Shown here: in pieces, positions 2,033 through 5,611 of the stretch
Position numbering within the stretch: the first letter of the stretch is position 1
Layout: every line of letters begins with the position of its first letter
NCBI RefSeq assembly: GCF_024345575.1
Contig: NZ_JAGQBJ010000002.1
Location: forward strand, 1-64,000
Direction of reading: 5' to 3'
Source of the DNA: Cyanobium sp. Morenito 9A2
GTDB lineage: Bacteria; Cyanobacteriota; Cyanobacteriia; PCC-6307; Cyanobiaceae
Length of the DNA stretch: 64,000 bases
The notes under the pieces: model-generated
Told to the model about the DNA's origin: nothing
Seen by the model: only the letters and a program-made list of their open reading frames with translations
Databases searched by the model: none
Position numbers and translations under genes: made by a program

Positions 2033-3564
2033 AGCCAGACGGTTGTGGGCACAGCGGAAGGCTCTGACCCTTCCCCTGCAGCCCCCTCCGGCCATCAAGG
2101 GCCTGTTTGGCGGCACCAGCCAGTCATGATCTGGCTCATCAACAATGGGGTGCCGGTCGATCGGATCACTGACAAACGCTAGCGCCTATCGGCCACGACC
2201 GGCAAAAACGTCATGCCCAGACCAGCTGCAACGTCCTCCAGGGCTCCCTTAATGCCTGAACGGATCGAGGCGGATGAGAAGAGGACAGAGCCTCCACGCA
2301 GTTGGCCACCGCCCAGACGCTGCCGCGCCGTCCGATGTCGTCGCCTTTATTGCCCCTTGGCACACCAGTACCGTTGATCCTGCCCTGGCGGAAACCACCG
2401 CATCGGCCCCGGCCAAGGGCCTGGGTGTTATAGGCCAGGCTTCAGTGTCAGCCTCCACATGTCATTGTGGGATCTTATCGTTAATGCCCATGAGCAGTGC
2501 GGGGATCATCAACAGTTGAATCGGAAAGGCGAAAGTACCGATGGCAGGCAACAGGTCTGCCATCTGAATGCCGTCGATTGCGTCACTGTCCAGCGGGGGC
2601 TCGGTGCGGATGGGCACTGAAGAGTCGCCACTCGTTCTTGAGTCTGGCGAGATAGTGACCCATGATTTCGGCCCTCGCACCGAGGGCCAAGGAACATCGA
2701 GCCGTCTCAGGTCACGGCTATACCTGGAGCCATCAATGCATCAGCCTCCAAAGAAGAGCCGCTCTTACGGAAGTCGATCAAACGCCTCTCTCTTGTGAAG
2801 GAGAAACGGATCTCATGCACCACACTGGTCAGGAGTGATTCGCAGTGAGCACGGAAGCGCGTGGCCTCGTGATGACGGGGAACAGATAAGCCCATGGGGC
2901 TTGCTGGTGTCTGAACCTGAGGGGATGGCAAGGTTCCAAAGTGCGTGAATTCAGCTGCAACGTTAATCCGTCAGTGGAAGAAGGGGCCCATCGGCAAGGC
3001 AGCTGCGAAGACTAAAGGTATCTAATGAATCAATGCGTCCATTCTTTCCTTGGGGCGTAGTCGAGCTAGGGCTTTACGCCAGCCGGCTCGAGAAAAGGAC
3101 GAAGCCATAACGACTTAGCATTCTCAGGCCGAAAAGAGGCAGTCAGCTTCAATGTGATGCAAATCAAACAAGCTATCTTGCAAAGAGATGAACTGCATCC
3201 TCAATTGTATTCAGATGGCGCAACCTCCCCTGCTGTGGAATACGACAAAAGGAACGTTCTGACATGGGACCAAGGAATCGTTTCTAGCCTTGCACTCGGA
3301 TTCGGCGGGTCTCAGGTCCAACTGTCATCTTCTGTTCTAAGCAAGTTGCAGAGGTGCCCCTGGCGTCGAGGCTCAGAACCACTCTGTTAATGGCAACCTG
3401 CAGATGGAGGGAGCACCAAACAGCGGCCACCTCCAAATGATCTCCAACCTGAATGTGAATCATCGTTCCATAGGTGAAGAGGGTTGATAACACCTTAGGA
3501 GACCCTGGAAAGCCCAGGCTGATCTCGGGACAATGGTCCTGTGAACGCAGCCAGGACCAAGTCC
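2033..3564. other. 1.5 kb gene-poor stretch, probably decayed
   Basis: No reading frame can be assigned to a family. The most protein-like is a minus-strand frame, 2462-2680, whose end has a hydrophobic segment (LLPAIGTFAFPIQLLMIPAL); it may be a fragment of a membrane protein but has no recognisable relatives. A 78-codon plus frame at 3154-3390 lies in more AT-rich DNA and is also unassigned. The left end of the IS5-family element should fall near 3490-3560 but no clear terminal repeat was found. Confidence 0.4.
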
Positions 3565-3614
3565 ATGGGTGGCAAGCAGCTCGGCTTCGGTGATTACGAG
3601 CAGACCACAGCCCT

Positions 3615-3646
3615 TACCGAGCCCGCAGGGCGAGCGTGGCGGAGCC
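3615..3646 (+). repeat. Short palindromic insertion, long type, copy 1
   Basis: This 32-base segment inside the transposase gene matches the segment at 4098-4129 at 30 of 32 positions. The two differences (C/G at 3622 and G/C at 3630) are partners in a 4-bp stem with a GCA loop, GCCC-GCA-GGGC, so the stem is kept. It adds codons for TEPAGRAWRS and a TAG to the transposase frame. Confidence 0.75.
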
Positions 3647-3786
3647 ACTAGAAACGCGCCAAACGTGAGAAGTTCCTCGCTGATATGGACCAAGTGGTGC
3701 CCTTGCAGGCACTGATCGAACTGATTGATCTGTACTACCCCAGAACCAGCAAGAAAGGCGGTCGTCCGCCATACCCGCTGGCCACG

Positions 3787-3810
3787 TAGCCGCAGGCTTC
3801 TGCGAAGCAG
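3787..3810 (+). repeat. Short palindromic insertion, short type, copy 1
   Basis: These 24 bases split the transposase between PPYPLAT and MLRIHLMQQW, which are normally contiguous. The segment forms GCC-GCA-GGC, then GCTTC-TGC-GAAGC. It matches the reverse complement of the insertion at about 4194-4220 at 18 of 24 positions, with one swapped base pair in the GCA-loop stem. Confidence 0.65.
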
Positions 3811-4097
3811 ATGCTGCGGATTCACCTAATGCAGCAGTGGTCCAGCCTCAGCGATCCAGGCATGGAAGAGACGCTGATTGAGGTGCCAACCATGCGCCGC
3901 TTCGTTGGGATCGACAAGATCAGCGACCGGATTCCAGACAAGACGACGATCCTGACGTTTCGGCACCTGCTGGAGAAGCACAATCTGGGAGAGCAGATCT
4001 TTGAGATGGTGAAAGCCCATCTCAAGGAACACGGCATGGCCATGAAGCAGGGCACGATCATCGATGCCACCTTGATCGCCGCACCGCGTTCCCCCCC

Positions 4098-4129
4098 TAC
4101 CGAGGCCGCAGGCCGAGCGTGGCGGAGCC
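4098..4129 (+). repeat. Short palindromic insertion, long type, copy 2
   Basis: Near-identical to 3615-3646 (30 of 32 bases). The stem reads GGCC-GCA-GGCC instead of GCCC-GCA-GGGC, a compensatory change. In the upstream transposase frame it encodes TEAAGRAWRS, almost the same peptide as copy 1. Together with flanking bases it shifts the frame between LIAAPRS and NRVRERDPERH. Confidence 0.75.
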
Positions 4130-4193
4130 CTCGAACAGGGTTAGGGAGCGGGATCCCGAGAGGCACCAGACAGGCAAGGGCAAGCAGTGTTAT

Positions 4194-4217
4194 CACCGCT
4201 GCACGGAAGGCTGCGCC
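4194..4217 (-). repeat. Short palindromic insertion, short type, copy 2 (inverted)
   Basis: These bases interrupt KGKQCY...GVKVHIGVD of the transposase in frame. Read on the minus strand, with the neighbouring TA, they give TA-GGC-GCA-GCC followed by TTC, matching the 3787-3810 element except for six positions, two of which are one exchanged base pair. TAT occurs on both sides (4191-4193 and 4218-4220), possibly a 3-base target duplication. Confidence 0.55.
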
Positions 4218-4695
4218 TATGGGGTGAAAGTCCACATTGGCGTGGACAAGGATACAGGCCGGATCCACTCGGTTAAGCCCATCGCTGCCAATGTGCACGA
4301 CCTCACCCCAGCAGCAGACCTACTGCACGGCGAAGAGGAAGTTGTGTATGCAGACGCTGGCTACCAAGGGATTGAGACACGAGAGGAGATGGAGGGCAAG
4401 ACCGCCAAGTTTCGGGTTGCCATGCGCCCCGGCAAGCGCCGCGCCTTACCGGACACACCCGAGGGCCGGCTGGAGAATGTGGAGGAGGTGGCCAAGGCTC
4501 ACATCCGGACCAAGGTTGAGCATCCCTTCCGCGTGATCAAGCAGCAGTTCAGCTTTGAGAAGACGCGGCTGCGGGGAATGACCAAGAATCGCTGCCAGGT
4601 GAATGTGCTGGCCGCATTGACGAATCTGTTCTTGGCCCGCCGCAAACTGCTGCTGACAAGCTGAACAGGGAATCAGTGTACCTATTGGGCATTGA

Positions 4696-5037
4696 TCAGG
4701 GCAAAAGACAGGGCAGATTTACTCCGGAATCAGCAGTCATTACCTGATTGAAGCCTTGAGGTCCATAGATGCGCTCATTACGGTCATGGTGCCGCGTTGG
4801 CACCTGAACGGACGGCCTTGCCCAGAGTTTCCTTAGCGGTTCACCGCATCCTGTCATGGTCAATGTTAAGCCTCTCCAAGCATCCACAATATGTGCTATG
4901 GACTGCGTTACTTCCTTGATCCCGTCAGTTTCGTCTGTCTTTGGGCTGAGAGCGATCAGGCGAGCGAGCGCTTCGGTTACGCTGTTGCACTTGGAGATCT
5001 TCTGTTGAGAGTGAATGCTAGGCGCTTTCTTCAGCAC
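4696..5037 (-). CDS. Hypothetical protein, doubtful
   Basis: A 113-codon minus frame opens with GTG preceded by a good purine-rich stretch (AAGGGGAAA just upstream). The first half (LARLIALSPKTDETDGIKEV and following) looks like an ordinary amphipathic helical protein, the second half less so. I do not recognise a family. It lies between the transposase relic and the acnB region in gene-poor DNA and may be a fragment of a larger lost gene. Confidence 0.25.
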   Translation of the reverse strand: MLKKAPSIHSQQKISKCNSVTEALARLIALSPKTDETDGIKEVTQSIAHIVDAWRGLTLTMTGCGEPLRKLWARPSVQVPTRHHDRNERIYGPQGFNQVMTADSGVNLPCLLP

Positions 5038-5611
5038 CTTTCCCCTTGGTTCGATATCTCGATTGACGGCTTATCTCTAGTGGATAGTGATGCCGTTTGA
5101 TCTGTTGTAGAAGCCGCTCGGAATCTGGAGGCTTCCAAGGAGGGGCCGCGGCTGTTGAACAAGGAGCACTCAGCACTTGGGTATGAGTTCATCGATGAAG
5201 CAACCCCATAACAACTTCTTCAACGGGATGGAAAGATACTGCGCTATTGCACGGTACGCTGCGAACGCTGGATGTGTTCTGCCGGCAGGTGATTTGAGCT
5301 GGCGATAGCTTTGGGGCTGGCAGCGCAAGGGGTTGGTTCCACCACCCACCAGCGCTTCGTTCAGCTTCAGGCCTCCATCAAGGGCGACTCACCCCTTGAG
5401 GTAGGGCCCTGCCCTAAGGTCTGATTGGGGAAGGAGGCAGCCTGCCGAACCCGGGTCACCCTGCCGTGCGCTGGGGTACGCCGAGGCCGCGGGGGTGCAC
5501 CTTGGCCAAGCGGGGCTGAACATCTCCCAGCCAAGGGTTGATTGAACGCACACGCCCCAACCAGGACTCCTTTGCCCGGCACCCATGGGAGGGGTGCTAT
5601 TCCGGCCTGGC
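5038..5611. other. Intergenic stretch downstream of acnB, nothing recognised
   Basis: No gene, RNA or clear terminator could be supported. Open frames at 5367-5600 are extensions of frames antisense or out of phase with acnB and resemble no protein family. Confidence 0.5.

Follow-up and report, generated by a model that had tools for sequence, protein, structure and literature searches.

The question raised by this locus is how a single transposase gene came to hold four short palindromic segments, and how elements this small move. The gene lies within the 64,000-nt stretch of Cyanobium sp. Morenito 9A2 DNA that we analyzed (the window), in an insertion sequence whose ends read GGAGACCCTGG... 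and ...CCAGAGTTTCC and which is flanked by CTTAG direct repeats at 3494-3498 and 4832-4836 (ends and repeats identified by eye). The features are listed below, the limits of the inserts having been refined by comparison with empty homologues.

3499 to 4831 (approximate limits), + strand: IS5-type insertion sequence, read by eye, with limits taken from this copy alone.
3565 to 4664, + strand: interrupted IS5-type transposase gene, 326 codons once the inserts are removed.
3613 to 3648, + strand: insert 1, family 1a, 36 nt, codon site 15; CTTACCGA-GCCC-GCA-GGGC-GAGCG-TGGC-GGA-GCCA-C.
3787 to 3810 (exact limits), + strand: insert 2, 24-nt element, codon 61; T-AGCC-GCA-GGCT-T-CTGC-GAA-GCAG.
About 4094 to 4128, + strand: insert 3, family 1a, about 35 nt, codon site 155; GGCC-GCA-GGCC / TGGC-GGA-GCC.
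4196 to 4219, - strand: insert 4, 24-nt element, codon 178; TAGGCGCAGCCTTCCGTGCAGCGG, that is, T-AGGC-GCA-GCCT-T-CCGT-GCA-GCGG, with one stem base unpaired.

Four inserts interrupt one IS5-type transposase gene

Cutting out 36, 24, 35, and 24 nt yields a continuous 326-codon frame, whose sole internal stop is a TAG at codon 17, directly after insert 1, where empty relatives show AAG. In the insert-free translation, Pfam finds DDE_Tnp_1 (E 1.1e-28) and DUF772 (E 1e-19), the combination of a DDE transposase domain with DUF772 by which the host gene belongs to IS5. The original prediction, that four inserts break one IS5-type transposase, is thus confirmed, except that the restored frame is not fully continuous since this TAG remains. 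The predicted coordinates were exact for insert 2, two bases off for insert 4 (4194-4217 rather than 4196-4219), and in the right region for inserts 1 and 3, the limits of which we have refined to 3613-3648 and about 4094-4128. The edge of insert 3 is blurred, with a C run and one base missing relative to other copies, and its 35 nt shift the reading frame of the window copy. Next to insert 4, positions 4194-4195 read CA, where empty copies show TT or TA.

The inserts form two related pairs, as had been proposed. By eye, 30 of 32 bases are the same in inserts 1 and 3, both differences being paired bases (GCCC-GCA-GGGC versus GGCC-GCA-GGCC), and 18 of 24 positions match between inserts 2 and 4 once one of them is inverted. 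Patterns built for the two families give 2 and 1 matches in the window, and none in shuffled sequence (100 runs each). An Rfam search of positions 3000-5400, up to an E value of 1, returned no match. The site of insert 1 is also occupied in IS5 copies B, C16, L369, and L380, and that of insert 3, which is empty in L380, is occupied in IS copy A and in other IS5 copies.

Two hairpins with covarying stems

The core of the 24-nt elements reads T-AGNC-GNA-GNCT-T-CNNC-GNA-GNNG, which corresponds to two hairpins with C-GNA-G loops, pointing in the same direction, with CTTC between them. We searched 201 genomes of the taxonomic family, presumably Cyanobiaceae, with a pattern in which three stem pairs were left free, TAGNCGNAGNCTTCNNCGNAGNNG, and found matches in 56 of them, the reversed control giving none. 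Of the 150 matches listed, 128 show Watson-Crick pairing at each of the three variable pairs; the rest have two pairs (11 matches), one (3 matches), or none (8 matches). The last 8 are a single conserved-gene sequence in two spellings, so that a few of the 56 pattern-positive genomes may hold no true element. Pair by pair, Watson-Crick combinations number 140, 132, and 137 among the 150 matches listed, against means of 69, 75, and 82 and maxima of 86, 96, and 101 in 10,000 shuffles. Among the 128 fully paired matches listed, stem 1 carries C, G, or A and stem 2 carries TG, CG, or TC, and all nine combinations are present. When the conserved-gene rows are left out, 17 cells of the three variable pairs are mispaired, 2 of them as G-T or T-G. 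The proposal that the folded form is kept by compensatory change is therefore borne out by the three covarying pairs in 128 of the 150 matches listed.

When the loops were left free in the search, GNA was recovered in 131 of 158 first loops and 152 of 158 second loops of the elements in the fetched cyanobacterial loci. Exceptional stability is known for DNA mini-hairpins with a C-GNA-G loop (PMC4686876). Family 1 follows the same plan over 33-36 nt, with C(GA)GGCC-GNA-GGCC(GA)G or CTGGCC-GAA-GGCCAG followed by TGGC-GGA-GCCA. In further subfamilies the second stem has 5 bp, or the whole element measures 22 nt and is nested inside the loop of another element (in L053, L076, L149, and others). 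In 1.28 Mb of loci, the first hairpin alone matches 134 times, 23 of them with no second hairpin adjacent; among the displayed ones, these lone hairpins look like subfamilies, decay, or chance. DNA folding z-scores of seven sequences, calculated with parameters that may omit a GNA bonus, range from -0.3 to -3.0 and are unconvincing, and the best predicted DNA fold of insert 2 of the window differs from the two-hairpin form.

Distribution of the elements

The genome of the window (G000; 3.1 Mb in 26 contigs, 99.79% complete) contains more IS5 copies on contig C16 and, as a nested pair, at 174-177 kb on contig C12. All 5 family 1 matches in this genome with at most two mismatches lie within IS5 copies; at three mismatches there are 4 matches, one of which is the C16 copy. 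The 24-nt elements (family 2) are found there in IS5 copies, in IS3-type-looking genes (by eye), and in one cluster on C5. Further copies, as expected from the original prediction, are present well beyond this strain: among the 201 genomes, the family 2 pattern (at most two mismatches) occurs in 57, with no match to the reversed control in any, and the family 1 pattern (at most one mismatch) in 19, with the reversed control matching once in each of 2 genomes. In a broader genome scan, which covered at least 119 stretches, three-pair matches make up 25 of 35 cyanobacterial matches and 2 of 90 elsewhere among those listed, and the cyanobacterial carriers listed include Synechococcus, Cyanobium, and Vulcanococcus. 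Among 324 genomes from other families of the class, 3 contain a pattern match and none a match with three pairs. Presence in viruses was considered and rejected, because the 69 matches in 58 viral contigs include none with all three pairs and many lie in simple repeats.

Many of the sites, as judged by eye for part of them, are inside transposase, AbrB-like, or helicase genes. The window itself holds an AbrB-like gene (PF14250) at 1235-1606, a member of a multicopy family with up to 13 matches in one genome; relatives occur in G139 and other genomes, and in G167 one of the copies has an element inside it. In the nested pair mentioned above (L003, G000:C12:174651-176693), one IS5 copy sits inside another of the same family, and the two carry family 1 inserts at different sites. 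Beside this pair, on the + strand of L003, an IS3-type-looking gene (by eye) contains TAGCCCGTAGGGCTTCCC between two TTTGCG motifs, apparently another 24-nt insert of slightly different sequence. Many diverged copies of a short gene bear elements at the same two sites in L142 (G123:C19), L077 (G162:C49), L099 (G083:C1), and L149 (G169:C5). The short gene of L142 has no Pfam match in the two frames searched; one copy of this type of gene has an RCECCGA motif, and a DUF3427 helicase lies nearby in L142. Subtypes also differ between genomes, AGAC/CTCC being found in 6 of the 9 matches listed for G069 and AGGC/CTCC in all 5 listed for G139.

Insertion replaces one base and duplicates none

Comparison of filled copies with empty homologues, much as the original prediction had envisaged, defined the insertion points. 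Within the fetched loci, 93 elements have a gapless empty homologue, and 76 of these filled/empty pairs are at least 80% identical. The 76 pairs are nonindependent and amount to about 33 distinct sites, and since most loci were fetched for holding an element, site counts are biased. There is no target duplication in any of the 76 pairs. Instead, in 73 of 76 pairs the first base 3' of the insert is T where the empty copy has A. The second base differs in 32 of 76, and mismatch rates between filled and empty copies fall from 0.97 at +1 to 0.42 at +2 and 0.16 at +3, the other displayed positions lying between 0.01 and 0.28. Since the target A reads T after insertion, a 25-nt T-hairpin-T-hairpin-T unit replaces one A-T pair. 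A simple 25-for-1 swap leaves the frequent change at +2 unexplained. There are exceptions to the A-to-T rule: the base after insert 2 of the window remains A, and the 22-nt nested subfamily seems to retain its A. An independent case of the A-to-T change is the AbrB-like gene of G167, for which more than 20 relatives read GCC-AAG and the filled copy GCC-[24]-TAG.

The target is mostly Y-S^A-N-G. Over 73 distinct sites, the base two positions left of the cut is C in 46 and T in 20, the base just before the cut is G in 41, C in 23, and A in 9, and G is the third base past the cut in 60. The inter-hairpin CTTC is complementary to GAAG, the most frequent target. This correspondence is one of letters only and is limited to that target, given that C precedes the cut at 23 of the 73 sites and T stands at +2 in 20. 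In each of the three IS5 copies checked, CCGAA with A or G as the next base is found one or two times, both strands summed. This scarcity means that a preference of five to six bases may suffice for repeated hits.

Recent movement and apparent repeated use of the same sites

Evidence for mobility comes from two IS256-like copies (by eye) in a single genome, L049 and L395 of G045, which align over 1502 columns with 9 mismatches and one 24-nt gap. Within 120 nt on either side, the insert itself and the base that follows it are the sole differences at the positions compared. This difference is a recent movement in G045, and it supports the original view of the inserts as mobile, or recently mobile, miniature elements.

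To follow the sites of the window across copies, we used an IQ-TREE tree of 41 IS5 rows, from which one row (26% identity) was left out and in which C16 (L020), whose inserts at sites 15 and 61 are decayed, was scored as filled there. The 10 filled rows at codon site 178 (insert 4) require 8 changes on the tree, the 6 at site 61 (insert 2) require 4, and sites 15 (insert 1) and 155 (insert 3), with 4 filled rows each, require 3 each. The notion that the four inserts landed at random was not upheld, as each site is filled in other IS5 copies and has changed more than once. Quick, weaker trees of other loci gave 8 filled rows and 8 changes for quick-tree site 11 and 10 filled rows and 5 changes for quick-tree site 13; quick-tree sites 6 and 7 were left out because some of their empty rows are zero-distance duplicates of filled ones, with the junction misplaced. 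Parsimony counts of this kind are blind to gain versus loss, and gain is favored because loss would need to restore the replaced bases every time. Intact homologues carrying the same segment, which the original prediction had regarded as evidence against it, do exist for insert 4; mobility is not refuted by them, because close relatives lack the segment.

Old insertions, inherited with the insertion sequence and then moved between homologues by short-tract gene conversion or precisely lost, are an alternative that we regard as unlikely. Multicopy hosts make conversion easy, and on the sense strand the changed junction bases CA precede the insert in all 10 filled rows at site 178 (by eye). The nearest neighbor is another filled row for 5 of these 10 rows and an empty copy for the other 5 (L402, L262, L371, the window copy, and C16/L020). 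The pair L402 (filled) and L401 (empty) speaks against conversion. These are sisters with support 100/100, identical over 36 nt to the left and at least 39 nt to the right of site 178, at which L401 reads TT and L402 reads CA plus 24 nt, so that a converted tract would have to be shorter than these flanks. The same exact site appears to have been filled in several lineages by repeated landing.

How the elements may move

On balance, we consider it somewhat more likely than not that these are nonautonomous mobile mini-elements of the small-dispersed-repeat type, which move through a single-stranded DNA form with the help of a trans-acting nuclease or recombinase and spread copy by copy. We infer single-stranded DNA because GNA/C-G mini-hairpins are exceptionally stable, only one of the two strands makes them, and wobble pairs are rare. 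In this scheme, every step of which beyond the junction analysis we infer, the mobile form would be single-stranded DNA, a trans-acting nuclease or recombinase would recognize both hairpins, and the inter-hairpin CTTC, as the complement of the GAAG target, may set the cut. The element would then spread from copy to copy, and an element in frame would ride along with its insertion sequence. A fuller picture can be drawn, which is possible and which we put forward only tentatively. The element would be 25 nt of single-stranded DNA arranged as T-hairpin-T-hairpin-T, which amounts to a dumbbell circle of 24 nt capped by two C-GNA-G loops and containing a T-T mismatch. A trans-acting enzyme would insert it at CTTC-paired GAAG-like sites, swapping one A-T pair. 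The element would independently revisit the same nucleotide in diverged copies and persist as a translated octapeptide in active transposases and defense-type helicases.

Movement through RNA, with a small structured RNA being reverse-spliced or priming reverse transcription at the target, has reportedly been suggested for the small dispersed repeats of Nostoc. It would be compatible with a single-strand structure, the lack of target duplication, and the A-to-T replacement; in one variant, a cut leaving a bottom-strand 3' CT, used as a primer that pairs with ...UAG, could explain the replaced A. We nevertheless judge this route quite unlikely here. RVT_1 is detected in just 10 of the 201 genomes, 5 of which belong to the 56 pattern-positive ones, and it is absent from G000, G045, and G192, genomes with recent or multiplied copies, although an enzyme acting in trans from elsewhere is possible. 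Moreover, inserts occur in either orientation relative to the host gene (IS5 sites 61 and 178), which rules out sense mRNA as the only target, and wobble pairs, which RNA could tolerate, are rare.

Movement by a trans-encoded Y1 tyrosine transposase of the IS200/IS605 or RAYT type, as proposed for REPINs, seems distinctly unlikely, even though two hairpins, no target duplication, a short guide-like CTTC, and a short target motif are all what such an enzyme would suggest. Y1_Tnp is detected in 20 of the 201 genomes, 5 of them among the 56 pattern-positive ones, and the genome of the window has neither a Y1_Tnp nor an RVT_1 match at 99.79% completeness. In G045, which holds the most recent filled/empty pair, Y1 was matched twice, and such an enzyme may play a role in that genome. 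The five pattern-positive genomes with Y1_Tnp and the five with RVT_1 do not overlap, leaving 46 of the 56 in which neither was detected.

In-frame survival as an octapeptide

The length of the 24-nt elements is a multiple of three, and only one of the six frames of the consensus core contains a stop (by eye). Nineteen IS5 rows have an open frame of at least 326 codons, a 20th open row (26% identity) being excluded; 16 are element-free, and 3 contain elements in stop-free frames, namely L402 and L262 (334 codons) and L406 (342 codons, two elements). The motif WYFGMKV of empty copies becomes WYHRCAEGCAYGMKV in L402. In G192, to which L402 belongs (G192:C1), four IS5 copies with an open frame of 341 aa have an element-encoded octapeptide at the same place, which indicates that the insertion sequence multiplied together with its element. 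A 667-aa helicase frame with DUF3427 in L142 also bears an element. Consequently, the idea of the insertion sequence as a neutral target that records landings was only partly right, given the in-frame elements of these 3 open frames out of 19 and of the four G192 copies.

The window copy and copy B, compared without gaps over 323 codons, have a dN/dS of 0.15 at a dS of 1.04 and have diverged under constraint. Insert 1 is present in both with the same stem variant, and the tree is ambiguous on its ancestral presence. That both share the TAG of insert 1 despite this constraint, that a TAG comes first in frame in many transposase cases, and that the only stop of L389 is a single TAG might suggest that the elements serve the host gene as a bypass or recoding signal or a regulated stop, with TAG-bearing transposases staying functional; this is highly improbable, since the three full-length open IS5 frames hold their elements in stop-free frames, the window copy, B, C16, L380, and L410 have extra stops or frameshifts, and insert 3 of the window, at 35 nt, breaks the frame. 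The phase 0 of the inserts is explained by AAG codons being the favored target. Translational bypass or recoding was rejected specifically, with no matching landing codon seen by eye and with open copies using stop-free frames. A TAG-to-TGG change in L409, considered as a stop repair, was rejected too, as it is silent in that frame (by eye).

Comparison with known repeats

Small dispersed repeats (SDR1-8) of Nostoc and relatives were reportedly described by Elhai et al. in 2008, and are said to be 21-27 nt long, to share a common structure with compensatory change, to insert precisely, and to nest. The present elements resemble them in a size near 24 nt, compensatory structure, precise insertion, nesting, and presence in mobile elements, which supports the original assignment to this type. 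The length range includes the 24-nt family and misses its sister family 1 (33-36 nt); three covarying pairs are found in 128 of the 150 matches listed; insertion is precise over the 76 pairs, the first base being replaced in 73 and none duplicated; and the 22-nt element nests within the loop of another, as in L053, L076, L149, and others. By the description of SDRs, what sets the present elements apart is their occurrence in picocyanobacteria, their two C-GNA-G hairpins, and their mostly Y-S^A-N-G target with its A-to-T change, together with a 33-36-nt sister family and in-frame coding inserts.

The palindromic elements of Rickettsia are mobile and survive in frame inside coding genes, a likeness to the present elements, and are several times longer, the comparison being one of descriptions only. 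Miniature inverted-repeat elements (MITEs) are much longer than 24 nt. In being nonautonomous and mobile, MITEs such as Nezha (PMC3733652) are alike, whereas the present elements are far shorter and have no target duplication. The GTAG/CGTC-tagged repeats, for which PMC3733652 names Anabaena, Nostoc, and Cyanothece among cyanobacteria, are also small palindromes with a TAG at the 5' foot; in contrast, the base before TAG varies here (G 41, C 23, and A 9 of 73), so there is no fixed GTAG. SDR5 of Nostoc reportedly enters HIP1 after its third base (GCG^ATCGC), likewise at G^A (PMC4390886). For REP/REPIN sequences, IS200-like recognition by a trans-acting transposase is proposed (PMC3116915). REPINs with their RAYTs share with our elements the mobility of short palindromes as a pair, and differ in that many sites here are intragenic, the hairpins point in the same direction, no Y1 was found in the genome of the window, and G precedes TAG in just 41 of 73 sites. 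A retroelement would be expected to come with RVT_1, which has no match in G000 and is found in 10 of 201 genomes. A search of mainly open-access literature on small dispersed or palindromic repeats in cyanobacteria turned up no description of these elements. Their kind, small dispersed repeats, is already known; the variant seen here has a precise insertion rule, recurrent sites, and in-frame survival.

Meaning for mobility and protein evolution

The elements are real, mobile, and selected for their structure, with single-stranded DNA as the favored form. The outcome of insertion is defined as a gain of 24 nt and a change of A to T with nothing duplicated, one genome offers a very recent filled/empty pair, the target motif is short, and 46 of the 56 pattern-positive genomes have neither a reverse transcriptase nor a Y1 match. 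Together, these make the question of how such small elements move testable with a plasmid target in a cyanobacterium. The elements also show one way in which proteins gain eight-residue peptides at repeatable positions.
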